From NCBI RefSeq assembly GCF_000214355.1, contig NC_015577.1, forward strand, positions 124,001 to 188,000: a stretch of DNA of 64,000 nt. The letters are read 5' to 3'. The translations under genes and the position numbers were made by a program. The notes beneath the pieces are model-generated. The model was not told where the DNA came from, ran no database searches, and saw only the letters and a program-made list of their open reading frames with translations. The stretch is from Leadbettera azotonutricia ZAS-9. Lineage in GTDB: Bacteria; Spirochaetota; Spirochaetia; Treponematales; Breznakiellaceae. Shown here one piece after another: positions 29,873-49,964 of the stretch. Position 1 is the first letter of the stretch, and every line of letters begins with the position of its first letter.

Positions 29873-31251
29873 AAGCTTATATTGCCCGCTGCATTGTCAA
29901 GCAGGTTGTCATCGTAAGCCTTCGATGCTGGTTTTCTGGTAAAGAGGGCATGGCCTTTTCCGCTTCGTCCAAAAATAGTATTTTCATTTCCATCATTAAA
30001 ATAGGCGTTATCCATGTCGCCATAAATAACGCCGCCTGTTTTAATAAAGTTGAGAAAACCGTTAAGCTGGCCGTATCCGTTGTCGCCGGTAACATTAACT
30101 CCTGCCCCGGTGCTATAAGCAACCAAATCAGGTGCATCGATAGTATTGTTTGAAATAACCCCGCCTTCCATTTTAAAGATAGAATTAGTAGAAACACTCA
30201 CTCCGCCGCCTACAGCATATTGCCCATACGCACTGCTATCGCTGCGGATTTTATTGCCGGATATAGCAGGGGCATTCCCCGGACCGCCTTTAAGCGTAAT
30301 TGTTGAATTGACGAGATACACCCCGCCACCCTCTACGGTATTGTTCGATGATTTAACGCTGTTGTTGGAAATTTTTGCATTGTCCTTAAGAGTGATGTCC
30401 GCATAACTGGCATACACCCCGCCGCCGAGCGCCGCAGAGGTTTTGCGAAGTTTGTTGCCGGAGATTTCGGCATAGTCAGACATGATAAGAGATACGCGAC
30501 CCGTCGCAGTATTGCTGTTTAGGTACACACCGCCGCCATTGCTACTGTTAGTACTCTCTATATCACTGTAATTATTATTGGCAATTTTGGAATGGCCTTT
30601 CATTTCCAGTGCGCTGCCGTGATAATACACCTGGACGAGAGGCATGGGATTTTCTGAGGCACCTTCGAGGGTTATATAGCCGTCGAGAATAAGTTTTACC
30701 GTGTTATTACTGGCATTGTTGTTATACCCCACTGAAAAAATACTCTGGCCTGCGGTTCCGGCAATAACACGTTCCGCAGTTGATCCCTCGGGTGTTTTAA
30801 GGATAACTTCAAGGCCGTCTACGGTTAAACTTTGCGTCGTGCTTATGGTTTCATCGGCATACAGATAAATGGTTTTTTCTCCCGCTGTGCCTTTTATCGC
30901 ATCAATCCGCTGTGCAAGGGTCAAAATAGTAACGGTGAATTGGGTTGTTTGTTCGCCTATTGTTATAGTAATAGACCCCGGGCCTGTTCTTGTGGAAGCG
31001 GCATCCCAATCAGTATTATTTTGGTTAATGGAGACAGATCCGGTACTGCCATCGGCATAGGTGGCGGTTACCACAAGCCCGGCAAGATCAAGAGGCTCGC
31101 CGATGCCGTATTCGGTTTTTGTTGGCTCTGTGGTAAGGTCTATGCTTGCGATAGTTTTTACAGCATCGCCGCTGTCGTCTTTGCAGGCGCCAAAGAGAAT
31201 TGCCAGCATGAGCATCCGCCCTAAACTTCGCATAAAAAAAGCTTTTTTCAT
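29869..31251 (-). CDS. Surface lipoprotein with Ig-like domain and beta-helix
   Basis: 460 residues. The signal peptide has lipobox LFGAC (MKKAFFMRSLGRMLMLAILFGAC). A bacterial Ig-like domain (about 30-110) of the 'TEPTKTEYGIGEPLDLAGLV' type found in Big_3-like repeats follows. Next is a right-handed beta-helix region with recurring GGGVY and ISGNK/ISNNS units (about 190-400), as in pectate-lyase-fold adhesins. I chose the ATG at 31251 for the lipoprotein signal; longer frames exist. It lies 86 bp downstream of ffh on the same strand. A cell-surface adhesion or glycan role is plausible but unproven. Confidence 0.75.
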   Translation of the reverse strand: MKKAFFMRSLGRMLMLAILFGACKDDSGDAVKTIASIDLTTEPTKTEYGIGEPLDLAGLVVTATYADGSTGSVSINQNNTDWDAASTRTGPGSITITIGEQTTQFTVTILTLAQRIDAIKGTAGEKTIYLYADETISTTQSLTVDGLEVILKTPEGSTAERVIAGTAGQSIFSVGYNNNASNNTVKLILDGYITLEGASENPMPLVQVYYHGSALEMKGHSKIANNNYSDIESTNSSNGGGVYLNSNTATGRVSLIMSDYAEISGNKLRKTSAALGGGVYASYADITLKDNAKISNNSVKSSNNTVEGGGVYLVNSTITLKGGPGNAPAISGNKIRSDSSAYGQYAVGGGVSVSTNSIFKMEGGVISNNTIDAPDLVAYSTGAGVNVTGDNGYGQLNGFLNFIKTGGVIYGDMDNAYFNDGNENTIFGRSGKGHALFTRKPASKAYDDNLLDNAAGNISF

Positions 31252-31337
31252 AATTACTCTCTTTGACGTCTCCATAGGCAATATATCCCTTTGCCTGGAG
31301 AAATTCAATCCGGATATAAAAATTCAAGCTTTTTTGC

Positions 31338-32893: not shown

Positions 32894-35800
32894 ATGCGTA
32901 ATAGATTCCTGGTTTCCGTGGTATTATTATTAGCTTCGGCAATGGCTGTTTTTGCAGGCGGCAGGAAGGACAATGAGTCCCACGAGGTTGAGAATCCTTC
33001 GGGTTTCACTGAGTCAATAAACATTGAAGGCAAAAAGTCGGGGAAATACAATTTTTATCTTGAGGCCAAGGATAAGGGTGGCAATACCACTATCGCGGGG
33101 CCCGACAATATCTATATCGATCCTGAATCGGATCTTCCTATTGTGAGCATCACCAACCCCAGGGCAAACATGCATGTCCAGGGCCACCTGAATATCGTGG
33201 GCACGTGCATTGACGACGACGCAGTGGGTTTTGTGGAGCTTTGGTTCAACGATGACATATCCACCCTGGTGCGCGCGGACGGCGCCGAATTCTGGTCGTA
33301 TTTTTATGATACTTCCCGCTTCCAGGACAAGCTTTACAGCATTACCGCCCGGGGCACCGACATAAACGGTCTTCCCGGCCATGAGACCAGGGTCGTCTGG
33401 AACCTGGATCGCAAGAAGCCTGAAACCAAAGTAACCAGCCACGAGCTGGGCGACCTGGTTTCCGGCAAGATCCGCATCAAAGGGACTGTCTGGGATGGCA
33501 ACGGCGTGGAGACCCTCGCGTATTCTCTTGACGATGGCCGCCATTATGCTCCGGTTTCCATTAAGTACGATAAAAAGAACGATATTTACAATTGGGAAAT
33601 CAACGTAGATACCAAGACCTTTAAAGACGGTCCTGCGGTTATATGGTTCCAGGCCAGGGATAAAATGGATACCCTTGGGGCAACTTCCCACCTGGTTTTT
33701 GTTGACAATACCGGCCCGGATGTGCGGGTGGTGTACCCTGATCCCGCAACGCCGGTAAACGGCATCTTCACGGTGGCAGGTTATGCCCAGGACACGGTGG
33801 GGCTTAAATCGCTCACCTGGAAGCTGGGCAAGGAAACCGGCGAATTCCCCCTCACCATTGGCAATCCCTGGTGGGTCAAAGAATTCGACATCCGGGGCCA
33901 GAAGGCTTCCAGCCTGGATCTCGAAATCAAGGCTGTCGATCTTTCGGGCAACGTAACTCTGGCAAAACAGAAGATCCTGGTGGATCAGAAGGCAGATCTG
34001 CCTGTAGTCACCCTCCAGGACCCGGTTGCGGGCACTGTTATGGGAGCCCAAGGCTTGACCATAACCGGTTCTGCCGTTGATGACGACGGCGTGGCGGCAA
34101 TTCTCTACGCAATAGATGGCGGAGCCCCTGTAGAAATCGCTTGTTCGGGCTATTTCCAGCAGGTTATTACCGGAATTCCTGACGGGACCCATGTTTTGGA
34201 CATTTGGGCCAGGGATATTACCGGTGTAGAAGGCACCAAGATCCAGGTTAAGGGCATTGTTGCCCCCGGCCTCCTGCCCGAACCCCGCATTTTGGCGGTT
34301 AAGCTTGGATCAGGCAAGGCCGCGGCAGTCGAAGAATTCTATACAGGCAAAGAAATCAACCCCGAATCCGGGGCTATCCTTGACCTTCGCATTGATTCGG
34401 GCAGCACCCTCGCAAGCCTGAGCTATCAGTTTGGGAACCACAGCCCTGTCGATGTCGCCATTAAGGGCTCCAAGAGCGGAGAGACCCGCCAGGATCTGGC
34501 TATCCCTGCCGATGTGGACTATGGGCAGGTCAAGCTTACCCTGCGTGTAAAGGATATCCATGGTCGCGAAGGGGTTTGGGAAGAATACCTCTATATAACG
34601 GATCTTAGTACCCCTAATCCCGACAAGCTCGCAGCAGCCCAGGATAAATCATCCTCCGGCGGGCTCAGCCTCGTAAGCATTGGCGACACCGCCTGGTCGA
34701 AGGCTGCCCGCGTCACTATCCCCCGGGGAACCAAGGCGGCTCTCCCCCTGGTCGCGTCAATTTCTTCTGAACAGCCCGTCAGCTCCGCGATCTTTACCGT
34801 GGGCGACAGGAGCATTAAGGGATCGGCCAAGGGCTCTTCCATAACTGCTGCCTTGCCTGCGGATATTCCCGCCGGCCACACCCCCATAACCCTTGATGTG
34901 TTCCTCAAAAGCGGCGAAAGCTATCAGGTGTCCGGTGAATTTTTTATCCTCAGGCCCGCGGATGACAGGACTATCAACACGGGCAAGAGCTTTGAGTGGG
35001 TGCGCCCCGATAATACCATAGGCGATGGAAGGCTCCTCATTTCCAAGACTTCCGAACCGATCATCGGCCTCTATAGCGGAAGGCCCCTGCAGAGCGTGAC
35101 CATTGCAGGAACCGGCGCCAATGGCCTCGCGGCCCGTATTGATGAATACGGCAGGGTAAGCCTCCAGGCTTCGGATATAGGCAGCTTTGGCCCTGTAACC
35201 CTTACCCTGACCGATAAAGATGGCGGGACTTTCCAGACCAGTGAGTTCCGCTTCCTCGTAGACCTTCGCGATCCCATCCTCCACTTTAACGAAGAGCTCG
35301 AAGGAACCTGGGTGCAGAACAGGGTACAGGTTACCTTTAACGCCCTGGACGAAAACAAGATTTCTGCATTGGACTTTTCCACCAACCTGGGCCTGACATG
35401 GACGCCCCTGCTTCAGGCCGATGAAGTTGCGCGGCTCAGCCCCGAAATGGATATTACCCGCAACCTCGATATTTCGAGCGCCCAGGACGGCGCGGTGAAT
35501 ATCAGCATCAGGCTCACCGACGAAGCCAAACGCACCCATACCCGGTCCTTCACAGTCCTTAAGGATACCCAGGCGCCCCAGCCCCAGCTCATTGTGCCTA
35601 TCTCGGAGGCAAGGGTGAACGGGACCATACGCCTTGGCATCGCCATTAAAGAGGCCGGAAGGCTCAACTCCATCAATTATGCCCGTCCTGCCAAGCCGGT
35701 CCAGGGGTCAACCCCCGCTGCCGAAGCGGTCAATAGGAATGTATACACCTATTATGCCGGGAACAACCCCCTTACCTTCCTCGACATCCTTTTGGATGCC

Positions 35801-38152
35801 CAGCAGACCCCCCTTGCGTCGGATATGAATTTTGTCTTTGAAGACGCTGCCGGGAACAGGTCGTCCCTGGATGTCTGGCCCTTTATCATAGACCAGCAGA
35901 TGGATATCCCTGTGGCGCAGATAAGCCTGCCCCTGGATAACGAAGTAATTACCACCGATTTTGTGATTTCGGGCATCATGTACGACGACGATGCCATTAA
36001 ACAGATTTATTGGCATATCGACGAAGATGAGGATCAGATCTCCGTCAGTACCAACGGGTACTCCATACCTGTGGCCCTCTCCAGCATGACCGATAACGAG
36101 CACAGTGTTACGGTAGTTGCCGAGGATATCTACGGCGTAAAGAGCGAACCCGTTACCCGGCGCTTCCGCATCTCCCTGGAAGAGCCCAAAGCTTCGGTAT
36201 TGCTCCCCACCTTTGAACAGATCGTGAAGGGTACCGTGAGGATTTCGGGTGTTGCGTCGGACAAGAACGACATCAGCCGCATCCAGGTTTCGCTGGACAA
36301 CGGCAATACCTACAACGACGCCTATGGCACCTCCGAATGGGCATACCAGTTCAACTCCAAGATCCTCAAAGACGGCACCCATGTGGTCTTTGTGCGTGTA
36401 TGGGACGGCTACAATATCACCGCCCTCTATTCAAGCCTGATCAACATTGACAATACGCCCCCAGAGGTAGTCCTTGACGCCCCCATCGACGGCGCCAGCA
36501 CCACCGGCCCCATCTACATCACCGGCCGGGCCATAGACCTTATACAGCTTGAGGACATCACCATAGAGCTGCGCAGTCTTGACGGCAGGAATATCCCCGC
36601 TGAATTCAGCACCCGCCATGTAAAGCCCGGTTCTATCCTTATGGAAGAAATGAACCTTTCCACCCTGCCCGACGGCCTCTACAACATCGAAGTGTGGGCC
36701 ATAGACAAGGCCGAGAACACCACCCGGGTTTCGCGGAACGTGCAGCTTGCCAAGGATAACCAGAGGAACTTTGTTGATACCCTCTATCCCCTGAGCGGCG
36801 AGCATGTGCAGGGCACCTTCAACCTTTACGGCTATGTGGGCGGCATAGACAAAGCCTCCACCGTTGACCTCCTGGTCAATGGCCGTACCACTGCGACCGA
36901 AGCGGTTACCGAAGCCGGCTACTACCGCTTCTCCCTGTCCGGGGAAAACCTCCAGGACGGATTGAACCAGCTCGTGGTTGTCAGCGACTTTAACGGCAAA
37001 GACATTATCCAGTCCGAAGTGCGCAGCATCTATTACCGCGCCGACGGCGCATGGGTAACCATAGACAGCCTTAACATGGGCGACTTCGCCTACGAAAGGC
37101 CCTGGCTCACCGGGCGTGGCGGCTACCAGCTGACTCAGGCGGAAACCGACCTTTTGGCGGACAAAAAAGCCGACAAGGCCGAGAAAGCCCTCATCCAGGC
37201 CAAGAAGCTCGATTACATCGACATAAGCTTTGACAACGGCAAGACCTTCTTCAAGGCCGACAAGGGCCGCGAGAAGGGTATTGACTGGCGCTATAGGCTC
37301 GAAACCGGCGAAATGGCCGAGGGCCTCCATTACCTCGTTGTCAGGGCCAACATGGCTAACGGCGAAACCGCTATAACCCGTACCCTGGTACAGGTGGACA
37401 AGACCCCGCCAGTGATCCGGCTCATAGCCCCCGAAGCGGGCGGCAGGTACAACCAGAGCCTGGAATACACCGCCCTGGCTTCGGACGATGTGGAACTCAA
37501 GAGCTTGACTTATTACCTCCGCAAGGGCGACAAGTCAGCTTACGAGGTGCCCGGCTTTATCCAGGGCCTCTACTTCGAGTTCACTATTCCGCCGTTCATG
37601 AAGCAGATTTGGAACGGCCTTCCCGACCTGTTCGCCGGCGGCGCCACCTACATGGACTTCGGCATGGGCCTGAGTTTCTTTGACGACAACGTCAAGATCC
37701 AGGTTCAGTACGGGTTTATGACACAGGATCTCTTCGAGAGTTTGGGCGGTCTTAAACCGACTCCCCCGGACTTCAAGAAGACAATCCGGTACGGAGGTCA
37801 TGTATTGGGCTTAAAGATACTGGCAAACGTCTATACCCTGCCCTTTGGCTCTTTTGCGGGCCCAGACTGGGATTGGCTCTCCGCGTCCTTTGCGATAGGC
37901 GCTAATTTCTCGCTCTTCGACATAGCCCACGAGGGTTATACCCAGAGCGGCAATGCGACATGGCTGTCCGCCTTGCTGATGCAGATAGAGTTCCCCAAGG
38001 TTACGATACCCAAGCGGGAATACCTTCGGACCTTCAGCTTCTTTACAGAAGGCCAGCTCTGGTTTATCCCAACTGACGTAAAGGCTAGCGACCAGGGCAT
38101 AAAGACCGTAATCCCCCATATAGTGCTGGGGTTGAGAATGTATATTTTCTAG
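32894..38152 (+). CDS. Giant exported protein with tandem Ig-like repeats and barrel-like C-terminus (1752 aa)
   Basis: It has a signal peptide (MRNRFLVSVVLLLASAMAVFAGG). Most of the protein is a string of Ig-like beta-sandwich units. Each ends in an aromatic D-x-x-x-P linker (FVDNTGP, LVDQKADLP, FIIDQQMDIP, NIDNTPP, QVDKTPP), and recurrent motifs such as IVGTCIDDDAV and ISGVASDKND occur. Residues about 1550-1752 differ: they contain membrane-strand-like segments (YMDFGMGLSFF, IRYGGHVLGLKI, ASFAIGANFSLF) and end in MYIF, like an outer-membrane barrel. I infer a surface-displayed, elongated protein anchored by its C-terminus. AAGGGGG precedes the ATG. A strong terminator follows. Confidence 0.8.
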   Translation: MRNRFLVSVVLLLASAMAVFAGGRKDNESHEVENPSGFTESINIEGKKSGKYNFYLEAKDKGGNTTIAGPDNIYIDPESDLPIVSITNPRANMHVQGHLNIVGTCIDDDAVGFVELWFNDDISTLVRADGAEFWSYFYDTSRFQDKLYSITARGTDINGLPGHETRVVWNLDRKKPETKVTSHELGDLVSGKIRIKGTVWDGNGVETLAYSLDDGRHYAPVSIKYDKKNDIYNWEINVDTKTFKDGPAVIWFQARDKMDTLGATSHLVFVDNTGPDVRVVYPDPATPVNGIFTVAGYAQDTVGLKSLTWKLGKETGEFPLTIGNPWWVKEFDIRGQKASSLDLEIKAVDLSGNVTLAKQKILVDQKADLPVVTLQDPVAGTVMGAQGLTITGSAVDDDGVAAILYAIDGGAPVEIACSGYFQQVITGIPDGTHVLDIWARDITGVEGTKIQVKGIVAPGLLPEPRILAVKLGSGKAAAVEEFYTGKEINPESGAILDLRIDSGSTLASLSYQFGNHSPVDVAIKGSKSGETRQDLAIPADVDYGQVKLTLRVKDIHGREGVWEEYLYITDLSTPNPDKLAAAQDKSSSGGLSLVSIGDTAWSKAARVTIPRGTKAALPLVASISSEQPVSSAIFTVGDRSIKGSAKGSSITAALPADIPAGHTPITLDVFLKSGESYQVSGEFFILRPADDRTINTGKSFEWVRPDNTIGDGRLLISKTSEPIIGLYSGRPLQSVTIAGTGANGLAARIDEYGRVSLQASDIGSFGPVTLTLTDKDGGTFQTSEFRFLVDLRDPILHFNEELEGTWVQNRVQVTFNALDENKISALDFSTNLGLTWTPLLQADEVARLSPEMDITRNLDISSAQDGAVNISIRLTDEAKRTHTRSFTVLKDTQAPQPQLIVPISEARVNGTIRLGIAIKEAGRLNSINYARPAKPVQGSTPAAEAVNRNVYTYYAGNNPLTFLDILLDAQQTPLASDMNFVFEDAAGNRSSLDVWPFIIDQQMDIPVAQISLPLDNEVITTDFVISGIMYDDDAIKQIYWHIDEDEDQISVSTNGYSIPVALSSMTDNEHSVTVVAEDIYGVKSEPVTRRFRISLEEPKASVLLPTFEQIVKGTVRISGVASDKNDISRIQVSLDNGNTYNDAYGTSEWAYQFNSKILKDGTHVVFVRVWDGYNITALYSSLINIDNTPPEVVLDAPIDGASTTGPIYITGRAIDLIQLEDITIELRSLDGRNIPAEFSTRHVKPGSILMEEMNLSTLPDGLYNIEVWAIDKAENTTRVSRNVQLAKDNQRNFVDTLYPLSGEHVQGTFNLYGYVGGIDKASTVDLLVNGRTTATEAVTEAGYYRFSLSGENLQDGLNQLVVVSDFNGKDIIQSEVRSIYYRADGAWVTIDSLNMGDFAYERPWLTGRGGYQLTQAETDLLADKKADKAEKALIQAKKLDYIDISFDNGKTFFKADKGREKGIDWRYRLETGEMAEGLHYLVVRANMANGETAITRTLVQVDKTPPVIRLIAPEAGGRYNQSLEYTALASDDVELKSLTYYLRKGDKSAYEVPGFIQGLYFEFTIPPFMKQIWNGLPDLFAGGATYMDFGMGLSFFDDNVKIQVQYGFMTQDLFESLGGLKPTPPDFKKTIRYGGHVLGLKILANVYTLPFGSFAGPDWDWLSASFAIGANFSLFDIAHEGYTQSGNATWLSALLMQIEFPKVTIPKREYLRTFSFFTEGQLWFIPTDVKASDQGIKTVIPHIVLGLRMYIF

Positions 38153-38162
38153 GAAACGTCTC

Positions 38163-38192
38163 CCTTCCGGACAGCAGTCCGGAAGGTTTTTT
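38163..38192 (+). terminator. Intrinsic terminator after the 1752-aa protein gene
   Basis: A perfect 10-bp stem, CCTTCCGGAC (38163-38172) pairing with 38177-38186, has an AGCA loop and a run of six T (38187-38192). It separates the two giant genes transcriptionally. Confidence 0.93.
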
Positions 38193-38253
38193 CAGGAAGA
38201 AATGGTTTTTTTTTCGATTTGGTGATATATTTTAATTGGTTCCGGAGGTTTGT

Positions 38254-41200
38254 ATGAAAAATTTGGTTAAAAGGTATTCATGGTTAGTCGTCTTATTGGC
38301 GGGTTTCGCATTCACAACCTGCAATAACCCCGTAAGTCTGGGCGGCGTCATCGACGCCTCTGTCCCTATTGTCAATATAAATGGTAATCTTGGGCCGGCG
38401 CCTGGCGCGTACATCCACGACACTCCAAAGATATATGTCAACGCGTCGGATGATCAGGGCGTTAAGGGCGTTACCGCGACCTATACCTATAGCATCCTCG
38501 AGCCCCGCGATCCTGTTACCAATGAACCTTTAGCCAATGCCAAACCTGTCGAGCAGCTGCCGGTAACGGTTCCCGCCTATTGGGACGAGGCGAGCAAAAA
38601 CTATGTTTTTGATATTGATACCAAAAGGGTAGAATATCCCCAGGGGAGCGGAAATTATGTCCCCATGGCCGATGGCACTTTGCGGGCAACCATAGTTGCC
38701 GAGGATAATTCCGGCAAGAAAACCACCTCTTCGGAGCTGATCTATACAGTCAAAAATCAGCCCCCTGTCCTTAATATGCAGATTCCAAGGCCGAATACGA
38801 GCGCCGGCGCGTTTATAACAATAGAGCCTTTCCCTGGTGTAGTGGATGATAACTACATTATGGGGGTTTACGAGGATTTGGCCGGCGTTGCCAAGGGATA
38901 CCCCCAGATTAAATTTTGGCCAGTGGGAAGCCCTGAGCCCGGCACCGGGGCTGGCTACAGTGGAAATGGCGATAGGGACAATACCGCGTGGGGGACTGTA
39001 TCTGTTTCTTCCGCTGTTAGCGCTCCCGATGTAAACGACTGGAGGGTGGATGATCCCGATGACGGCTGGGTCAGTGTAGACAACGGCATTGTGGAGAGCG
39101 ATAAAGGCGAACGTGGCGGCACCTTCAGATATTATTTGAAGCAGCGGGACGCAAACGGAAAGTATAGTGATGAAGAGGGAGTTGGACTTCTTAAAGTACC
39201 GGGCGCGGGCACCAAGTACAACTTAAAGATACGGCTTAAAGATGTAAACGATATTCCTCTTGAGTGGCCTAAAGATGTGTATAAAGATGTAACCGGCGCA
39301 AGTGTTGAATATATGTCGGTAGAATTATTGGCCAGCGGAACACCTCCGAGGGTTTCCATTAATAGCCTTAACCTCACCGATGATCCCGACCATCCGGATA
39401 TTGATAAATTGTATCAGAATGGCAATTTTTATATTCAATACGCTGCTGAGCTTGCCGACAAAAATACCGACACTTTGAATAACTTTGTGTCGGATTTAAG
39501 CCTGGAAGTACCTGGCAGGCTTAAAAGCGATCCTACCAGGACAGCTACGGTAACACTCGATAAATTTGTAGATACCGCTAATTATGAAAATATTTCTCCT
39601 GATGATATCCCCAGAAAAGTTGGGCCAAGGTCATTCCAGGTCCAAATTGGGAAATTTTATTATGTAAAAGATGACGGTATCCCGGGCGGGCCTGTCGATA
39701 ACGAAACACTGCTGCCTTCGGATACCTATGCCTATGTTGTTTTTAACGATGGCAACTTCAATTTCACGGCCAGAGCCCATGGTGATTCCGGTTCGCCCGG
39801 TTCGCAGTCTCTGAGCCTCTATGTCGACCGTTCGCCTCCTGTTACAACGGTAACTAGCGTAAGTCCTGCCATTACTTTGTCCAATACTGTTACCTCTACC
39901 ATCAATGATGCTGCTGATTACGCATCTGTTTTCAAGGATAAAGATGGCAATGACCTGAATATTTCCTACAGCCCTTCTATCCCCTACAGGCGTTATACTG
40001 TAAACAGCACCATCAAGATTGGGGTTAACTCTACGGACAACCGCGGCAGCGCGCTGGACCCCGCCAATACCTCGTATCAGCAATTCAAGTACATCCTGCT
40101 TTATCAAAACGATATAGCACCATCTTTATTTCATGCTACCAAAAACGGTCCTGAGGCCGCAGTAGAGTTCGGTAATTTCCTCTACAACTATAATGAGGTT
40201 GCATCAAGAAGGGCGGAATTTTTTGATCATACCAAAGCGAATCCTATAACCACTCCCTGGTTTGGTGCTTCAAATGGTAATCCCCTCGTCAAAGTAGATG
40301 GTTCCGATGGCGCTTATACCTTAACTCTTCAGACCCAGCATTACCGTCTTGATAATGGGAGCTATAAACTTTGGTTCTATATTGTTTCCAAGGATCAGGC
40401 GGGGAACGTCAGCTATGAGAGGATGCTGCTCAATGTGGATCAGGAAACCGACAAGCCCCTGGTGGATTTTGGCAACCTTAATAAGCCCGATAATTCCGAT
40501 GGCCTTAGTTTCGCTGACGAAACCAAAGTTATCCGTATTGATATTTCGGACGATGACGGATTACAGGAAACCGCTGTGGAATATCGTTTCCTAAAAAAGG
40601 CTAAATTTGCCGAGACAGACGATCCGGATGATGCCTATTATTGGTCCCATACGATAGATGATGCTGAATGGTTTAAATTAAGCGCGAGTCCTTCCGAAGA
40701 TTCCAAGGAAATCATCATTCAAGACCTTTCGCTGGCAAAAATCGCTTATGATTTGACTGGCGATCCTTATACACCCGGTTCCTCCATGGGTACGGCACAG
40801 AGGGAGGCGCTTGGATCGGAACTTGATTTAAAGAAGATCCAGATAAGGGTCACTGATGATGGCAGGAATCCTTCAGCGGGCGGTCCAAAGGTATATTTCT
40901 CGGATGGCTATACTAAAGGTTTTTCCAGGATAGCCGCGTTCACTATGGATCTGGAGGCGCCCAGAATTAGGCCCACTGATAACGATATGTCCGACCACCC
41001 AACGTTTTTTCCTGGCAGGAGCAAGGATAATCCTTTTGCCGCCCCTCAATTGAATAAAGCGTATAAAGATGCTTTTTGGGCACGCGGCGATGTTATTGAA
41101 CGAAACCCCCAAAGTTTTACCATCAAGATAGATGGAGATGATAATTTAACCTTTGATGTTAAAGTCAAGGTAAATTCAACAACCAAAGAAATTATAATTC

Positions 41201-44200
41201 CGGAAAACGAGATTGCTGCAAATGCAGAATTCGGATCGGATCGCGCAGCTATTTGGAAAGCGCCTCCGGCTCTTTGGGCAACCTCTGGGACCTGGAATGG
41301 CGAACTCCAGTGGCGTCACCCGATGGATAAGGGCATTCAGTATACGTACAATTCGGTTTCAAAGGAATATGATATTCCGGTTGAGGTGCCGATTTGGAGC
41401 AGCTTGAAAGACGGCGCCCATTTCCTGGCCTTCACAATATGGGATAAGGTTCCCCGGAGCAATACCGCACAAATAAACTTCAATAAAGACGGCGACGGCC
41501 CGGTTATTAGTTTTAACAATATTAACCAGTATCAGTACCTGTCAGAATCGAAAGAATTTCCCCACTTGACGGATAAAGAGTGGGCGTATAACGGCAGCAA
41601 TAATACAGATGATCTCAGCGACGATGTTGATGAAGCTACTGCTCTGAAGCCGCGGGTGGATCATAAAATCAAGAATTTGACCGCATTGAACGATCAGACT
41701 GTCAGGATTTTAGGCACTTTTTCTGACACGCTTTCCAATGTAGGTTATCCCGCCGGGGCCCCCGTATTCTATTACAAATTGGAACGCTTCGTCCCCAATA
41801 CTTATGGTAAACATACAACCATTCTTGCCCAAAAACAATTCTGGAATGCCGCCGACGGCGGAAGCTGGCAAGCCACAGAAAAATGGAATATAAAAACCAT
41901 AGATGGTTCGAATAAGATTGTTAGTTTCAGTATTGATATTCCCAATAATAAATATGATGAGGCGAATGGGAGTCTTATAACTGATAATGATGGTCTCTAT
42001 CGTGTGAGCATACGTATAAAAGACGACCAGGGAAATGGATATTCCGATCTGGAAAATCCCCTTGGTGATTCTCTGGGGGCCCCTGGTTACGAGACCAATG
42101 TAGCTTTTTCTGTTGACCGTATGCCGCCGGAAGTCAAGTTTTCCAAACTTACCATAGGCTCTGAGCCGGACGATTATGCTTCAGTGGCCAATTTGGCAAT
42201 TTCTTCTAAAGTTATTTCCGGGACTATTTTGACCTTCGAAGGTACTGCCGAAGACTCTTTCCTTGGAAATGGGGATTCCAGTGCGCTGTTGGTAAACTCT
42301 ACCGGTAATACTGTTTTAAGTACTAGTGACTCTTATGCAGAAAAGATAGTAATAACCAAATTAGTCGATGCCACCAATGCGAATAAACGGAATTGGACAA
42401 TTGAACTTAAGGATACCCAGCTCGCAAGTCTTAGTGATGGGTCATATACTTTGTTTGTTACCTTTAAAGATGGCGGCGGACGGGAAGGAACTGTATCCAA
42501 AACCTTTATTCTGGACAATGTCGCGCCTGTAATTGATTACAGTAACCTTGAAGAAGTTACCGAGCTGGCAAGCTCTACAATCCTTGCAGAAGCGAATCCC
42601 CGCATTTTAGGTGTCGTGAATGACACTTATGGCATCAGTTCCTTAAAGGTGAAGATTGAAAAGGCGAAGAATGGAAATCCAACTGATGCTGACTGGGAAA
42701 ATGTAGGGACTAATGGAGGGACTAGAGGCGATTATACTTTTGATGCAAATGGGTACATTACACTCCTTGAACCTTCGGCAAATTCCGTTACCAGTCTGAA
42801 TTGGACTATTGAAGCTGGTACTATCAGAAATGGCGTTAACGGACTTGATCTTAATGATGGTATTTACCGCATTGTCTCTGAGTCCAAGGACAGTGCCAGA
42901 CGTGTTCCAAATAGCATACAGAACGATGGCACGCACCCATGGTTCGTATTCCGTATCGACAAAGTGAACCCTGTCCTGACTATTCCGGATGAAGCGGTGA
43001 GCAGGTACTACGGTGGAAAAGGTAACTTTACGGCAATATTCGATGATCAAGGTATTGGCGGTGCATCGGTTCCCGGTATTAAAATCGGTAAGAGCTATAT
43101 CCATGTGTATGGTTTTGCTACTGATGACAGTGGTATAGGAAGTGTGGAAGTTGGTGTGAAGGGAGCCCCTTGGACAACTACCGGATCAATAGTAATTGTT
43201 GCACCTGGCGTCGAAGGTCGTTTTGATGCTTATATTCCAGTGTATGCATCTCCAACCGATGATACCGGAGATACTTTTACAGCTAATCAGCCCAGTATTA
43301 CGTTCTCTGTTAAGGACAATGCGGGGCGTGAGTCGGCCAATACAAAAGACTTTACCTTTGATAAGGTAGCGCCTACCGGAGCGATAAGTTCTCCGCCTGC
43401 GGCTAATTACCTCAATGGTGCTGTAACTTTGTCGGGCAGTGATGCAGATAAGAACGGCATCAGCAAAGTTTATTTTGTCTATGGAAAGATCGGGGCTTCT
43501 CTTAGCGAGGAAACCGTTGAAAACGCCAAGACGTTTATTAAAGCGTCTGATGATACAAGCGGAACCGGCAGAAAGTGGCTTGATACCAGTCTGGATTCTG
43601 ATGATGAAGGTGATTTCTATGAAGATGGTATTGGTAAATGGGACGGCGGTCTAAATACATGGGCTTTTGCCTTTAAGGATATTTCCGACTTTGGATTACC
43701 TGAAAATGCAAGCTATGTGTACGAGGAGGAGCTGGCAAGTAATACCTTTGTGTTGCCGATCTACATTAAGATTGTCGATGTTGCCGGTAACGAGACCATC
43801 CTTATGCGGCGTGTCTTAATCGATCCTGATGCCGACAAGCCGAATGTTTCTATTAATAACCCACAGGAAAACGCGATATTGGGAGGCGAAGTACGGGTAT
43901 CCGGAAGCGCTCAAGATGATGACTGGGTGTTCGGCGTGAAGATTCGAATATTCGATACAGCAGCTGGCGCATATATAAATCTTCCTCACGGCAGTATGGA
44001 AACTCAATTCCCACTAACTGAAAACTGGGTATGGGCAAGTTTAGATTCTGCCAGGGATAAAGCGGTTAGTTGGTCGTATATATTGAATAGTACTGGTGGG
44101 CTGAATCCTGTGAATCCGGGCGATCCTCCCCGAGCCTTCCGTATTGACGTGCAGGCAGTGGATACACAGAACGACTTGGTAATGCACGAAAATGATGAGC

Positions 44201-47200
44201 CGACTAAAATAGGAAGCGTTGTGTCCCGCAATGTTAATTTTGATAGTACCGTGCCGACTATAGAACACATAAAGATATCCAAGGCAGGCTTACCCGATAA
44301 AGATTATATTGGAAATGCTATCTATGCATCGGGAACTTTTGTAATTCGTGCGACAATACAGGATGAAAGTGGTATTAAAACCATAGAAACCCGAGAAGGA
44401 ACTGCCGGGGGATATACAGCACTGACTGCTCTTGCTCCTGGATCTGAGGCTAAGGGTTTCTTTACCCCAACGGTAAAACATCCGGGCGATGGTTTTGTGG
44501 CGAGCAAACGGTATTATATAGTAAATATGGGAGCTACGTCTTCAGCGACATGGGCAACATACGACGATTATTCGGGTGAACCTAAAACCTACGAAGTAGG
44601 TACAACTTTTACGTATAAGAGCGGTGCAGCAGTAATATCAGACCCAACTGCTGAGGTATATGAGGCAACCGGTACGGGCGCGGCGCAGTATTTCGAATTT
44701 ACCCTGCAATACCCGGTGGAAAGTCTCCCTGATCTCGTAGCGCTGGGTAAGACAGGTAATTTTAGCCTTTACTTAAGGGCATACGACAATACAAGTCCGC
44801 AGGCTTATATGGTCCAAAGTACCGTAAATGTGTCTGTGGATAATACCTTCCCGTATATCCAAAATGAGACCGCCCCGAATGCTTCTACTGACCAGTTCTA
44901 CATCGAGGGAACTGCATGGGATTACTCCAAAGGAGGCGGCGAGCCCTCTTCAGGAAATATATCCGCCTTGAAGGAGATGGTGGTTTATTTTGAACGAAAT
45001 GGAGCCTACATTAAACCTGATGGAACAGCGATTTCTGCGCCTACTATGACGACCCTTGATAATGTTGTTGATTTGGGTGACGCCGCTAATTCAGGCTTTA
45101 CCAGTTCTCATTATGACGGCTCCGGTAATCATCTGATTCCTACAACTATAGCGTATCCGGATATTACCGCTGGTCAGGGAATCGTTATAGACAACGTTGA
45201 GTTAAGTTCCGATATTGATGGCGATGGCTTCCAGGAAAACTGGAGTAAGCAGGGTAACGACCAGCATTGGAATGTCAAGTATACCACGTGGGCATTTAGG
45301 AACACGTTGGGAGACGGTCCTCTTACAGTGCACTATGTGGTTATAGACGAAGCCGGGAATGCTACTCACTTTAGCCAGACACTCTTTATCCGCAATAACC
45401 CGCCTATTATCTGGAATCTGGATATAGGTACTGACTTAAATGGCAATGGAGCTATCGCAGATACGGAAAAATTAACCGGGCTTACAGTTGCAACACTCAA
45501 GCTTGATAGCTCTAAACAAATTGACAATGACCGTTATGATTATAACGGCGCTATGAAAAAACCCGTATTTGTGGTTCGTAACAATAGCTTGCAGTTTGAT
45601 ATTTCCACAGTAGATGGAAATGGGACTAAGACCTACAAGGTGCAGCATGTTACTCGGGCCCCTATCACCGCAGGAGGCGGACTCTCAATTGAGCAGGGGA
45701 AAGTATATACCATTGTTGATCCTGCTGGTGCAAGCTGGATACAGCTTGGCGCACCTGGCACTACTGCAGGTACAACCTTTATAGCGGCAGCTTCTGGAAC
45801 TATGGGAGCAGGCGCGGCTACAACGTTTGTAGAGGGAGTAACGCAATCTACGAGTACGCCAAACGCCGGTACCTCATTTGACGGCAAGGAAACATCAACA
45901 GGACAGGTTTCCTTCGGTTCCGCTGATTTTGCATCGATTGCTGACACTATAATCGGTAATACGACCCTGGATGATCTTGATGCAGCTGACCGTAACTCTT
46001 CACTGTATCTGATTATTGTCTCCGACAGTACATCAGGTAGTCCGCTAACTTTTGCAACCCTTGTGGGTCTTGATGTGGATAACATAGATGAGACCCTGCC
46101 TGAAGCCGAAATCTATACTTTGAAAGCCGATGCGGTGGTTGGCAAGGAAGAAAACTGGAAGCCTACCACTCTGGATGAACTTGGAAGCGGAGGTACTCTT
46201 TATCCGAGCGATAACAAAACCAAGGGCAACTTGTTCCAAACAGATAGTGGCATATCAGGCCATATAGAACGGAAAGGTTCAGAAACTAATGTTACCGGGG
46301 TATTCTTTACAAGGGACACTGTAAGCGGTCAATTGGTATTGCGGGGACATGCCTTTGATAATCAGCGTATAACAGAGTTACAGTTAAAGTTTGGCGCAGA
46401 CGCTGCATTTACCATATTAAAAGTGGATCCCGATGATGGCAATAAGCTTAAACCCACCAATGCAGCAGGGACTATTCTAACGGGGGCCGCTCTTGATAAC
46501 GCGAGTTCCTGGTCGGTAGAAAACCTGACGCTCGAAGGTCATAACGTCGAATGGGCTTATGTATGGGACAGTGTGGCAAATCCTGCAGCTACAATTGTCG
46601 GCAGCGATCTGGCAGTTGAAGTTACGGTTTTTGATGCAGCAACGGCCCGGAACTTTGGTGTTGATGATAATTCTGTTGATATCGCGCCTTATATTATCGA
46701 TATTACCAGGGTTGATAATGACACTATCCGCTCCAAGCAGGGCTGGTATAGCTTCCGGCGCGGCGATACCTTGGAGATCAGCGGCTTTAACCTTAAAGCT
46801 TCCGGTAATACTACAGTTAGTTTCGGCGGAGTGAATGGTACTATCGCAGCCGGAGCTACGGTCAACAAGGTGACGTTGACACTGCCGGAGATGGCCGCAG
46901 GCTCTAACAGGGCCAGTGATACTGGCGCCAAGAGTGGTGAGATTGTTCTTACAGCGAATGTCACTTCTGGAGCTCCAGTTATTGCGGTTAATAACCGGAA
47001 CAGTAACGCCAACAGATGGAATAACCAGTTTGACCAGGAAGCTGAGGAAGTTGATCGAAACCAAACCAAGATGTGGAATGACGACCGTTATGCCCATCTC
47101 TGGCAGAGTAACGCGATTAATACAGGCGTAACTGATAGCGCTAATCGTGGGTATTTTGTAGGATTACAGGTAACCCATGGCGGTACTACTCCAGTAGCTT

Positions 47201-48549
47201 TATCAGAGCGGCCTGCGTATCCTGCCATGACTATTAATCCTGCAACAGGTGTTCTCCATGGTTCATGGAGCAATTATGCCGCTTCTACTATTTTCCGTAG
47301 TGCTAATAATGTCGCAGCTACAGAAACATACTACCTTGGAGATCCTTCGGAGGATACTGATATCCATTATGCCAAGGCAGTTGCCGGGGTTAATGGCGGA
47401 AATTCCCGAGGTGTTAACGTAGTCTGGAATGCCAATACCTATACCGCGGGCAGTGGGGCATGGACAGTTCCGAATTCGGGAGGTGTGTATGTGTATAACA
47501 ACCAGGCAACTACAGGATCTGGGTATAACGACACATATAGTTATTATTTGGCAGAGGCTCTGACTCATCATGATACGCTGTTCTCGCTTGTTAACCAACG
47601 AATTGTAGCCAGTGGAAATGATATCCATTTAAGTTATTATGATGCGGTTAACGATGCTCTTCATTATTGGCATAAGACTTCAAATGATAATATTACAGCT
47701 GCCAATTATGCTAATAATAGAAGCTGGATTGTTATAGATGGAACTGCTGATAACGATAATGCAGAAGGGGACGTTAATGGAAGGGGCGGTCCTAACTTTG
47801 ATACTGCTAACCAGAACGCCAATAGGATTGTAGCCGCTGATGCTGCTACGGCAGGTACAGCTAGAGTAGCTTCTGCCGGTGAATACAGCGCAATCGATGT
47901 TACCAGTGATGGACGACCAGTTATAGTTTATACCGCTGGTAATACTTTGCGTTTAGCCTATGCTACGGCACAGACAACGAATGGCCCAACTGCCGCTCAA
48001 TGGAAGAGGCAGGTTATTTCAGTTCCGAATAGCGCTTATATGTATGTATCCATGAGAATTGCGCAGCAGGCCGGCAATGATGTGCTTCATATATCAGCCT
48101 TCAAGGTAAATACCGGCGATTTGGTTTACATAAAGGGAACCAGGCCAACCGCCAGTACGGGAGAATTTACTTTTGAGGCTGCTGACATATTGGTGATAGA
48201 CAGCCTCGGTTCAGTCGGTACATGGTCGGATATTTCAGTTGACAGTCAGGGCAATCCTTATATCTCTTATCTGGATTACTCCTACATGAATTCTAACAGC
48301 GGTATGAAGATCGCCTTCTACGATCCTTCTCTTTATACTACTACCGCCAGGGACTTTAATGGGAAAGACCTGACCGGTTGGGAAACCTTGAATGCCCCCA
48401 TGAACTTCCAGGTTCGGGATGTACGAACCAGCATAGAAAACGTAACGACACCTACAGCTATCGCAAACCAGTTCTGGAAGGCGGCTGTCGGATATTCCTC
48501 CGGGGATAAGTTCCGTATTGCGTACTTTATCAAACCGGAACAACCGTAA
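38254..48549 (+). CDS. Giant surface lipoprotein with Ig-like repeats, IPT/TIG and sialidase-like repeats (3431 aa)
   Basis: The ATG at 38254 has GGAGG at 38243-38247. The signal peptide ends in a lipobox-like FTTC, so the protein is probably a lipoprotein. From about residue 40 to 2800 it contains tandem Ig-like units joined by D-x-x-x-P linkers (VDRSPP, VDQETDKP, VDRMPP, LDNVAP, FDKVAP, IDPDADKP, FDSTVP, VDNTFP). An IPT/TIG-like domain (about 2811-2900) and a C-terminal region (about 3100-3431) with sialidase/BNR-like D-x-x-G-x-P-x-I-x-Y repeats (DVTSDGRPVIVYT, DSQGNPYISYLD) follow. Two inserted phage-tail-like modules lie near residues 2080-2149 and 2477-2529. It is more AT-rich than the preceding gene. 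A glycan-binding surface role is inferred only. Confidence 0.8.
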   Translation: MKNLVKRYSWLVVLLAGFAFTTCNNPVSLGGVIDASVPIVNINGNLGPAPGAYIHDTPKIYVNASDDQGVKGVTATYTYSILEPRDPVTNEPLANAKPVEQLPVTVPAYWDEASKNYVFDIDTKRVEYPQGSGNYVPMADGTLRATIVAEDNSGKKTTSSELIYTVKNQPPVLNMQIPRPNTSAGAFITIEPFPGVVDDNYIMGVYEDLAGVAKGYPQIKFWPVGSPEPGTGAGYSGNGDRDNTAWGTVSVSSAVSAPDVNDWRVDDPDDGWVSVDNGIVESDKGERGGTFRYYLKQRDANGKYSDEEGVGLLKVPGAGTKYNLKIRLKDVNDIPLEWPKDVYKDVTGASVEYMSVELLASGTPPRVSINSLNLTDDPDHPDIDKLYQNGNFYIQYAAELADKNTDTLNNFVSDLSLEVPGRLKSDPTRTATVTLDKFVDTANYENISPDDIPRKVGPRSFQVQIGKFYYVKDDGIPGGPVDNETLLPSDTYAYVVFNDGNFNFTARAHGDSGSPGSQSLSLYVDRSPPVTTVTSVSPAITLSNTVTSTINDAADYASVFKDKDGNDLNISYSPSIPYRRYTVNSTIKIGVNSTDNRGSALDPANTSYQQFKYILLYQNDIAPSLFHATKNGPEAAVEFGNFLYNYNEVASRRAEFFDHTKANPITTPWFGASNGNPLVKVDGSDGAYTLTLQTQHYRLDNGSYKLWFYIVSKDQAGNVSYERMLLNVDQETDKPLVDFGNLNKPDNSDGLSFADETKVIRIDISDDDGLQETAVEYRFLKKAKFAETDDPDDAYYWSHTIDDAEWFKLSASPSEDSKEIIIQDLSLAKIAYDLTGDPYTPGSSMGTAQREALGSELDLKKIQIRVTDDGRNPSAGGPKVYFSDGYTKGFSRIAAFTMDLEAPRIRPTDNDMSDHPTFFPGRSKDNPFAAPQLNKAYKDAFWARGDVIERNPQSFTIKIDGDDNLTFDVKVKVNSTTKEIIIPENEIAANAEFGSDRAAIWKAPPALWATSGTWNGELQWRHPMDKGIQYTYNSVSKEYDIPVEVPIWSSLKDGAHFLAFTIWDKVPRSNTAQINFNKDGDGPVISFNNINQYQYLSESKEFPHLTDKEWAYNGSNNTDDLSDDVDEATALKPRVDHKIKNLTALNDQTVRILGTFSDTLSNVGYPAGAPVFYYKLERFVPNTYGKHTTILAQKQFWNAADGGSWQATEKWNIKTIDGSNKIVSFSIDIPNNKYDEANGSLITDNDGLYRVSIRIKDDQGNGYSDLENPLGDSLGAPGYETNVAFSVDRMPPEVKFSKLTIGSEPDDYASVANLAISSKVISGTILTFEGTAEDSFLGNGDSSALLVNSTGNTVLSTSDSYAEKIVITKLVDATNANKRNWTIELKDTQLASLSDGSYTLFVTFKDGGGREGTVSKTFILDNVAPVIDYSNLEEVTELASSTILAEANPRILGVVNDTYGISSLKVKIEKAKNGNPTDADWENVGTNGGTRGDYTFDANGYITLLEPSANSVTSLNWTIEAGTIRNGVNGLDLNDGIYRIVSESKDSARRVPNSIQNDGTHPWFVFRIDKVNPVLTIPDEAVSRYYGGKGNFTAIFDDQGIGGASVPGIKIGKSYIHVYGFATDDSGIGSVEVGVKGAPWTTTGSIVIVAPGVEGRFDAYIPVYASPTDDTGDTFTANQPSITFSVKDNAGRESANTKDFTFDKVAPTGAISSPPAANYLNGAVTLSGSDADKNGISKVYFVYGKIGASLSEETVENAKTFIKASDDTSGTGRKWLDTSLDSDDEGDFYEDGIGKWDGGLNTWAFAFKDISDFGLPENASYVYEEELASNTFVLPIYIKIVDVAGNETILMRRVLIDPDADKPNVSINNPQENAILGGEVRVSGSAQDDDWVFGVKIRIFDTAAGAYINLPHGSMETQFPLTENWVWASLDSARDKAVSWSYILNSTGGLNPVNPGDPPRAFRIDVQAVDTQNDLVMHENDEPTKIGSVVSRNVNFDSTVPTIEHIKISKAGLPDKDYIGNAIYASGTFVIRATIQDESGIKTIETREGTAGGYTALTALAPGSEAKGFFTPTVKHPGDGFVASKRYYIVNMGATSSATWATYDDYSGEPKTYEVGTTFTYKSGAAVISDPTAEVYEATGTGAAQYFEFTLQYPVESLPDLVALGKTGNFSLYLRAYDNTSPQAYMVQSTVNVSVDNTFPYIQNETAPNASTDQFYIEGTAWDYSKGGGEPSSGNISALKEMVVYFERNGAYIKPDGTAISAPTMTTLDNVVDLGDAANSGFTSSHYDGSGNHLIPTTIAYPDITAGQGIVIDNVELSSDIDGDGFQENWSKQGNDQHWNVKYTTWAFRNTLGDGPLTVHYVVIDEAGNATHFSQTLFIRNNPPIIWNLDIGTDLNGNGAIADTEKLTGLTVATLKLDSSKQIDNDRYDYNGAMKKPVFVVRNNSLQFDISTVDGNGTKTYKVQHVTRAPITAGGGLSIEQGKVYTIVDPAGASWIQLGAPGTTAGTTFIAAASGTMGAGAATTFVEGVTQSTSTPNAGTSFDGKETSTGQVSFGSADFASIADTIIGNTTLDDLDAADRNSSLYLIIVSDSTSGSPLTFATLVGLDVDNIDETLPEAEIYTLKADAVVGKEENWKPTTLDELGSGGTLYPSDNKTKGNLFQTDSGISGHIERKGSETNVTGVFFTRDTVSGQLVLRGHAFDNQRITELQLKFGADAAFTILKVDPDDGNKLKPTNAAGTILTGAALDNASSWSVENLTLEGHNVEWAYVWDSVANPAATIVGSDLAVEVTVFDAATARNFGVDDNSVDIAPYIIDITRVDNDTIRSKQGWYSFRRGDTLEISGFNLKASGNTTVSFGGVNGTIAAGATVNKVTLTLPEMAAGSNRASDTGAKSGEIVLTANVTSGAPVIAVNNRNSNANRWNNQFDQEAEEVDRNQTKMWNDDRYAHLWQSNAINTGVTDSANRGYFVGLQVTHGGTTPVALSERPAYPAMTINPATGVLHGSWSNYAASTIFRSANNVAATETYYLGDPSEDTDIHYAKAVAGVNGGNSRGVNVVWNANTYTAGSGAWTVPNSGGVYVYNNQATTGSGYNDTYSYYLAEALTHHDTLFSLVNQRIVASGNDIHLSYYDAVNDALHYWHKTSNDNITAANYANNRSWIVIDGTADNDNAEGDVNGRGGPNFDTANQNANRIVAADAATAGTARVASAGEYSAIDVTSDGRPVIVYTAGNTLRLAYATAQTTNGPTAAQWKRQVISVPNSAYMYVSMRIAQQAGNDVLHISAFKVNTGDLVYIKGTRPTASTGEFTFEAADILVIDSLGSVGTWSDISVDSQGNPYISYLDYSYMNSNSGMKIAFYDPSLYTTTARDFNGKDLTGWETLNAPMNFQVRDVRTSIENVTTPTAIANQFWKAAVGYSSGDKFRIAYFIKPEQP

Positions 48550-48588
48550 GAGGAATATTGGTTAGATGAAGTAACAGTTTTAAAAAAT

Positions 48589-48619
48589 AAAAGCCGGAGA
48601 GTATTACTCTCCGGCTTTT
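48589..48619. terminator. Bidirectional-type terminator after the giant lipoprotein gene
   Basis: A 13-bp stem (48589-48601 with 48607-48619; core AGCCGGAGAG) has a TATTA loop. An A-rich run stands before it and TTTT is part of the 3' arm, so it can work in either direction. Confidence 0.85.
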
Positions 48620-48657
48620 ACTCTGGATCGCAATGTATTTGGCATATAGGGGAAATA

Positions 48658-49719
48658 TTGAGTAGTAAAAGAACCAGTAATAAATATAGCAGCAAAAAGA
48701 AAATTTTTAAAACGAAGCTTTTGCTTTTGATTGTTGGTATTTTTGTTCTCGTTATTGGAAGCATTCTTTTTTTCTATCCCAAAAAGAATGCAAAAACGAC
48801 AAACGTTGTTTGGTATGTTGATGAGGGCATTGCAACGAATTGGGAGAAAATACTTGCAGAGGCTCCTAAAGAGTTTGCTCCTTACCATAAAGAGGGAAGT
48901 GTAAAAATATTAGGCAGTGAAACACCGATTCCTGCTGATGCCTCCGGTTTTGTTGTTACTACCAAAAGACTTGCAGGGGTACAATTAAAAAATAATCAGG
49001 GCAGTGAACAAAATTCAGCTTCAAAAGAAGAGCTCCCAATAATCTTTGCTTACGAGAGGCTTGCCCGTACACGGAGGTATGGAGACGCTTATGTGCTTGC
49101 GTTGGATCCCTGGTTTATATTCAATAAACGTACTACTCCGTCCTTAACTCGCGAGCGGATAATAGCTCCTGATCAGAGCAATCTTGGCGGGCTTCTTCTT
49201 CTTCCCGGCAGGGATCAAAAAGCGGTAAGTTCATGGACCGCTCGGCTTTTACAGGAAAGCCCGGGGCGCTTTATTCAAGACAAAGCAATGTGGAATGAAG
49301 TTAGAAGAAACCTGTTCCAAACTGGGGCTTTTCAAGATGGTGGGTTTTCATATAGTTGGAATGAAGTAATCTTTACGCTTTTGGGTAACACAGAATGTTG
49401 GGTTTACGCACCGGTTAGTCGTTTACGTACCTTGCCTGATTACCGGACTACACAGATTGAAGCTTTTGTTTTTCCTGAGCCTGGCGATAGTTTTGGTTTG
49501 CAGGCAGAATTATTATGGCTTATTCCTTTTGGACTAGATAACGCCGGAGATACTAAAAATCTCTTGGACTGGCTTAATTCTGCAGAAGCTCAATCAGTTA
49601 TTGCTGCTGTTACAACCTGGATACCTGCTCACCCTGATTGTCCCCCATATAATCCTGTGGCCCAAACTGCCCGCATTGCATGGCTTACCTCTTCTTTTGT
49701 GTGGGAGTTTACAGAATAG
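48658..49719 (+). CDS. Membrane-anchored periplasmic protein, weakly substrate-binding-protein-like
   Basis: 353 residues. A basic cytoplasmic stub and one transmembrane helix (LLLLIVGIFVLVIGSILFFY) leave about 310 residues outside. The C-terminal part has the flavour of extracellular solute-binding proteins (LLDWLNSAEAQSVIAAVTTWIPAHP). The middle contains FAYERLARTRRYGDAYVLALDPW. No family is certain. The start is TTG at 48658 with AGGGGA 4 bp upstream. It follows the terminator of the giant lipoprotein gene and may serve that locus. Confidence 0.65.
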   Translation: MSSKRTSNKYSSKKKIFKTKLLLLIVGIFVLVIGSILFFYPKKNAKTTNVVWYVDEGIATNWEKILAEAPKEFAPYHKEGSVKILGSETPIPADASGFVVTTKRLAGVQLKNNQGSEQNSASKEELPIIFAYERLARTRRYGDAYVLALDPWFIFNKRTTPSLTRERIIAPDQSNLGGLLLLPGRDQKAVSSWTARLLQESPGRFIQDKAMWNEVRRNLFQTGAFQDGGFSYSWNEVIFTLLGNTECWVYAPVSRLRTLPDYRTTQIEAFVFPEPGDSFGLQAELLWLIPFGLDNAGDTKNLLDWLNSAEAQSVIAAVTTWIPAHPDCPPYNPVAQTARIAWLTSSFVWEFTE

Positions 49720-49751: not shown

Positions 49752-49964
49752 ATGTTGTTTGCTGAATGGAACCAGGAAGAAGCCCTGGAATACCGGTACA
49801 ACGAAGGCCGGGAAGAGGGCCGGGCCGAAAGCCACAGGGAAGATGCCAGGAATTTTCTTTCCATGGGAATCGAGCCGGAGAAGGTAGCGCAGGGAACCGG
49901 TCTCCCGCTTGAAATTGTCAAGGAATTGGCTTTGACGATAGGGACAAAAACGGCGAGGAAATAA
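49752..49964 (+). pseudogene. C-terminal fragment of an Rpn/PD-(D/E)XK transposase-type nuclease
   Basis: 70 residues: EEALEYRYNEGREEGRAESHRED, then an ARNFLSMGIEPEKVAQGTGLPLEIV-type helix. This is the repetitive EGREEG tail and terminal helix-turn-helix-like part of recombination-promoting nuclease (Rpn/PDDEXK_2) proteins, which are usually about 280-300 residues. A stop codon at 49737 lies upstream in frame and no nuclease domain is present. It is a relic of a mobile-element-like gene, although translation of the fragment is possible. Confidence 0.65.

Follow-up and report, generated by a model that had tools for sequence, protein, structure and literature searches.

Tandem arrays of Ig-like beads are found in SiiE, LapA, and the MpAFP-type RTX adhesins, which are single proteins secreted by type I systems. 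Propeller folds occur in the PLL/PHL lectins of Photorhabdus and, in a six-bladed form, in the GH33 sialidases. A third group of interest here comprises the ABC-type solute-binding proteins (SBPs) of the Pfam families SBP_bac_1 and SBP_bac_8. In treponemes, MOSP is described as containing N- and C-terminal domains, the latter displaying porin activity, and as adopting conformers located in the outer membrane and in the periplasm (PMC5643300). The locus described below encodes three proteins, P1, P2, and P3, that resemble the first three of these groups. Compared with the Ig-stalk adhesins, P2 is a lipoprotein ending in a propeller head and encoded next to barrel and SBP-like proteins. P1 is set apart from MOSP and the Tpr outer-sheath proteins by its description, since its Ig string is joined to a predicted barrel of only 8 strands.

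The locus was analysed in a 64-kb window (bases 124001-188000 of one 3,855,671-base contig of Leadbettera azotonutricia ZAS-9), to which coordinates refer unless otherwise specified. All three open reading frames recorded in a preliminary description of this DNA are present on the + strand, at positions 32894..38152 (P1, 1752 aa), 38254..48549 (P2, 3431 aa from its ATG), and 48658..49719 (P3, 353 aa). Each gene had been considered to be separately terminated. This holds for P1, which is followed by a terminator-like hairpin and then T6 (38163..38186, + strand, -19.2 kcal/mol, z -2.6), and for P2, which is followed by a terminator-like 15-bp hairpin (48588..48620, + strand, z -3.95, 0/200 shuffles), but not for P3, downstream from which no terminator was evident. 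Neither Pfam nor NCBIfam provided a family-level name for P1, P2, or P3, and PDB sequence searches with profiles of the P1 C-terminus, the P2 C-terminus, and P3 returned generic matches or none.

Unrelated genes flank the locus, namely ffh and one for a Big_3 lipoprotein upstream, and DUF1538 and P-II-like genes downstream. Behind the Big_3 domain of the 479-aa lipoprotein encoded beside ffh (29869-31308, - strand), repeats resembling a right-handed helix (NNSG/GGGVYL...) are present, Pfam recognizing only Big_3 in this protein. Just upstream lies a tandem pair of GGDEF (diguanylate cyclase) genes (27525-29872), which overlap by 4 bases. At 49755-49964, a 69-codon frame (LFAEWNQEEALEYRYNEGREEGRAES...) has no Pfam match and appears to be the remaining C-terminus of an Rpn/PD-(D/E)XK-type transposase-associated ORF.

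P1 begins with a signal peptide (MRNRFLVSVVLLLASAMAVFAGG) followed by a long Ig-like string. The Ig-like content attributed to it in the preliminary description was recovered by Pfam (Big_7 at 5.3e-43, together with related Big families), and the Ig-like proteins of the locus passed the Pfam cut-off for Big domains (Big_7/Big_3/Big_13). The Ig folds were confirmed by VIA-align (Z up to 13, the matches listed being Ig domains); SiiE, an ice-binding adhesin, and Lap were among the sequence and Foldseek matches of this region. The open reading frame is not fortuitous since homologues were detected across Spirochaetia, one of which matched over the full length. Alignment of P1 with 18 relatives showed that both ends are conserved, residues 550-700 being the least so.

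Structure prediction by segments, one of the checks suggested in the preliminary description, gave Ig domains followed by eight strands in the C-terminal portion of P1 and a propeller at the end of P2. The AlphaFold model of P1 covered its last 607 residues (mean pLDDT 80.5, pTM 0.45), with the eight strands located at model residues 413-605, within the last ~200 residues of the protein. This predicted barrel (residues ~1550-1752, 37541..38149, + strand) ends in ...GLRMYIF. Its strands comprised on average 12 residues, versus 9 in the Ig part, and displayed alternating hydrophobicity in most cases (weak in 2/8). The C-terminal residue was F in 16 and L in 3 of the 19 aligned P1 sequences. Long alternating strands and a terminal F or L are the pattern of an outer-membrane barrel, in agreement with the barrel-like C-terminus initially noticed. 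The predicted features of P1 are those of BAM-type outer-membrane proteins, namely a cleavable signal peptide, strands extending up to the C-terminus, and a C-terminal aromatic residue. Comparison with autotransporters revealed that the N-terminal position of the passenger fits, but that eight strands rather than 12 were predicted by AlphaFold. In an even-stranded barrel, both termini are periplasmic, and eight strands leave no pore. For these two reasons, we infer that the long Ig chain extending from the modelled barrel is most likely located in the periplasm.

The ATG start codon of P2 at 38254 is preceded by a good GGAGG ribosome binding site, whereas initiation at an upstream TTG would give 3437 aa. 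The N-terminus resembles that of spirochaetal lipoproteins (FAFTTC-NN), and the putative lipobox cysteine (38320..38322, + strand, TTC-NNPVSLGGVID), which is conserved in the aligned N-termini of the homologues, opens a conserved C...GLG..VD signature. The motif C-x(2-14)-GLG-x2-(V/I)D, present right behind the lipobox in most P2 homologues class-wide, could be a lipoprotein sorting signal. The Ig-like content reported for P2 was also recovered, Pfam detecting Big_13 (1.1e-8) and Big_7 (2e-4). IPT/TIG repeats had likewise been reported. A TIG-like domain at 46687..47040 (+ strand) is suggested by conserved columns and by Pfam TIG matches in 2 of 12 homologues, both relatives of the P2 C-terminus (best E 0.0018), but P2 itself has no Pfam TIG match. 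Relatives of P2 share the lipobox, the N-terminal signature, and a C-terminal block of ~770 aa; the middle varies, total length ranging from 1816 aa to >5136 aa. Both ends are kept while length is variable, as would be expected of a stalk. If extended, P2 proteins of 3400-5100 aa would measure on the order of 100 nm, and none of the tools applied placed them at the surface rather than in the periplasm. The genome containing the window encodes a second giant P2-type lipoprotein (2196 aa, L150 3744-10334, genome 2229743-2236333, ~2.23 Mb), which matches part of the propeller profile and has no P1 or P3 gene adjoining.

The conserved head of P2 (47059..48546, + strand) is predicted to form a C-terminal beta-propeller. 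The AlphaFold model of the 496 C-terminal residues had a pTM of 0.85 and was matched by VIA-align to seven-bladed propellers (Z 26), this fold being retrieved with an rmsd of ~3 A over ~300 residues at Z 24-26. The top rows included virginiamycin B lyase (Z 26.5), the PLL/PHL lectins (Z 24-26 over ~300 residues), and WD40 proteins (Z ~24). Sialidases occupied the top rows of the Foldseek search (E 2e-7, TM-score ~0.35), and sialidase-like repeats had been reported in this protein. Despite these top rows, membership of GH33 was ruled out by signature, since a motif search showed that the strict Asp-box S-x-D-x-G-x-T-W is absent from the head; Pfam detected no BNR match in P2. GH33 sialidases have a propeller fold but are six-bladed, whereas the best VIA-align matches of the P2 head are seven-bladed. 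The region previously regarded as sialidase-like is instead a predicted propeller, which is lectin-like at most. Compared with the PLL/PHL lectins, it shares ~10% identity and is part of a giant lipoprotein. Likeness to lectin propellers would make the head compatible with glycan contact, although fold likeness alone does not demonstrate sugar binding, and WD40 and lyase propellers score equally well.

P3 had been described as a membrane-anchored accessory protein. The anchor was retained, in the form of one predicted hydrophobic helix near the start of a protein devoid of a lipobox, but the generic accessory assignment gave way to a relationship with SBPs, the anchor being followed by a periplasmic SBP-like domain. 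In P3 itself, the Pfam match to SBP_bac_8 was sub-threshold (E 0.054). The members of the family are short, nearly all have the hydrophobic N-terminal helix, and their C-terminal pattern is typical of SBPs. The P3 family profile (the alignment excluded the L057 gene, which was judged unrelated) retrieved a clear sugar-type SBP in genome G359 (E 6e-9), itself assigned to SBP_bac_1 at 1.2e-49 by Pfam. SBPs also occupy the P3 slot at two loci: in L159, the protein adjoining P1 passes the SBP_bac_8 cut-off (9.4e-7), and, in L059, the gene located between P2 and P1 encodes an SBP_bac_1 protein (1.3e-16), which was not linked to P3 by the profile search. Judged from these sequence relationships, P3 is a divergent SBP relative. 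It differs from ABC-type SBPs in that it keeps an N-terminal transmembrane helix, has no lipobox, and lies below the Pfam cut-off. No Pfam-recognisable ABC permease or ATPase gene is present directly beside P3 in the 64-kb window.

Sequence searches detected P1 in 74 of the 198 sampled Spirochaetia genomes, belonging to many families, and profile searches additionally detected it in families outside Spirochaetia. Since Ig-rich proteins are common, some of the matches inside Ig parts are generic. Lineages with P1 include oral, rumen, and digester lineages, and the named hosts include treponemes from termites, the rumen, and horses, T. putidum, T. ruminis, T. zioleckii, Brucepastera, an oral treponeme from a dolphin, and several MAGs of non-gut origin. 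P1 and P2 are present in genome G186, which we take to be T. denticola ATCC 35405 (P1 homologue at 2761787-2766430, P2 homologue at 2755232-2761763), and all three proteins in G376, presumably T. primitia ZAS-2. The initial proposal that the system is specific to gut treponemes is contradicted by its occurrence in G186, T. putidum, digester spirochaetes, marine-mammal oral spirochaetes, and many Spirochaetia families. Profile searches detected no match in G077, a 1.1-Mb genome of T. pallidum size, and none in the small family f22 genomes, the sizes of which would suit Borreliaceae. This absence indicates that the set does not belong to the minimal envelope of spirochaetes. TDE2699, a published candidate MOSP partner, was considered as a gene of the set in T. 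denticola and rejected, its position (2744140) being ~11 kb away.

P1 and P2 were both present in 59 Spirochaetia genomes, P1 only in 10, most of which are fragmented assemblies, P2 only in 1, and neither in 128. Shared ancestry inflates the Fisher value for this co-occurrence, and adjacency is therefore the better argument. A P2-type gene was located beside P1 in 44 of the 70 named loci with DNA downstream from P1, or 45 if L072 is included, whose P2 was shown by BLAST and missed by the N-terminal motif. The same motif was found in 1 of the 336 other ORFs of these loci, a difference that ruled out chance clustering of P1 and P2. Gene order and strand varied, the order being P1-P2 in L043, P2-P1 in L051, P1-P3 facing a convergent P2 in L050, P2-P3-P1 in L055, L079, and L080, and P1-P2-P3 in L172. 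G376 has an uninterrupted same-strand cluster of a giant P2, P3, and P1 (L171/L152). In L177 and L172, P3 lies directly behind P2, and P3-family genes adjoin P1 and/or P2 in >12 genomes. The set made up by the three proteins is real and recurs, in line with the preliminary description, with adjacency in many lineages and a reshuffled order. Preservation of the association while the order changes points to a shared function rather than to an inherited neighbourhood. Two observations count against reading the set as a module: P2 lies away from P1 in about a third of the named loci, and many genomes containing P1 and P2 lack P3 or have none that can be recognised.

Additional arrangements were observed in several genomes. 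The P2 frame of G376, located just before P3 and P1, stays open for >5136 codons and continues beyond the end of the analysed sequence (the whole of L171, 2-6412 of L152). The same genome contains further P2-P3 neighbours at L168 and L170, as well as a P3 gene at L169 without P2 directly beside it, which suggests that the P2-P3 pair has been duplicated. In L176, P3 precedes a tandem pair of P1 genes, and L177, from the same family, harbors P2, P3, and two P1 genes in succession. Two different giant lipoproteins are encoded after P1 in several termite Treponema MAGs (L061-L064, L066, and L067), the second of which often carries a signature resembling C...GLG..L..TGP.

A predicted outer-membrane barrel, a lipoprotein, and an inner-membrane anchor agree with the envelope-spanning anatomy put forward in the preliminary description. 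On this basis, we tentatively favor, at slightly less than even chances, a conserved three-part module of the spirochaetal cell envelope comprising a stalked propeller head (P2), an outer-membrane partner (P1), and an SBP-like partner in the inner membrane (P3). The N-terminus of P2 would be fixed to a membrane leaflet by its lipid, a stalk of Ig beads of variable length would extend the protein, and the TIG domain and seven-bladed propeller head at its C-terminus would contact a ligand, for which a glycan or glycoprotein is the most likely candidate. P1 would be anchored in the outer membrane by its small C-terminal barrel. Since this barrel is too narrow for exporting its own string, the Ig chain of P1 would most likely be periplasmic and could hold, guide, or sense P2. 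One helix would hold P3 in the inner membrane and place its periplasmic SBP-like domain at the chain's inner end. The module supposes that the three proteins interact physically, and the placement of P1 and P2 in the periplasm or at the surface would follow from this arrangement. Its function may be adhesion or glycan capture; the analogy with Ig-stalk adhesins and lectin propellers would make contact with glycans or surfaces its most likely use. A more speculative extension, to which we assign little probability, is that the SBP-like sensor P3, the periplasmic chain of P1, and the ~100-nm stalk of P2 connect an outside ligand to the inner membrane without a break, as a single mechanical or sensory link specific to spirochaetes.

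The periplasmic location predicted for the P1 chain also accommodates a different role, in which both P1 and P2 would reside in the periplasm and control its spacing, the tension of the sheath, or where periplasmic structures are placed, P3 acting as an inner-membrane tether. A barrel preceded by an Ig chain implies that this chain is periplasmic, the gene for the inner-membrane-anchored P3 adjoins those for P1 and P2, and both ends of P1 are conserved. However, G077 and family f22, which presumably have periplasmic flagella, gave no match, so that such a scaffold would not be generally required, and a conserved ligand-type propeller head would be odd for a spacer. We consider this scaffold rather unlikely.

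Less probable still is a dedicated export pair, in which P1, as the outer-membrane partner, and P3, as an SBP-derived chaperone, would assemble or secrete P2, the latter being the sole working end. The P3 copies of G376 indeed track P2 genes (L168, L170, and L171/L152), and the position of P3 directly behind P2 in L177 and L172 is in keeping with this possibility, but the copy at L169 has no P2 directly beside it. In addition, 8-strand barrels are not known to act as translocation pores.

The SBP origin of P3 and the gut and digester habitats of many hosts could reflect nutrient capture, the P2 propeller binding a polysaccharide outside the cell and P3 serving as the sugar-binding receptor for the product. 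This is improbable given that no ABC transporter or hydrolase gene is present directly beside the set in the window and that P3 is highly diverged from sugar SBPs. Finally, unrelated Ig-rich surface proteins merely lying together would account for P1 and P2 each having their own terminator, but this is very hard to reconcile with repeated adjacency in reshuffled order and class-wide co-occurrence.

The preferred reading, the envelope-spanning module, assembles elements that are individually familiar, since every fold reported here and stalked Ig adhesins are already known. The combination of these elements and its class-wide spread were not encountered in the papers searched. No paper describing the P1-P2-P3 set was found, consistent with the initial statement that no such system was known, although coverage of subscription papers was low, so that the set cannot be regarded as proven to be undescribed; nothing usable linking the set to the ultrastructure of T. 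primitia was found in the literature. Little is understood of spirochaete envelopes, and some of the largest treponeme proteins are devoid of an assigned role. The set provides a concrete, conserved group of three genes. P1 and P2 occur in a genome that matches cultured T. denticola, and all three in one that matches cultured T. primitia, which makes the role of the giant Ig proteins directly testable.
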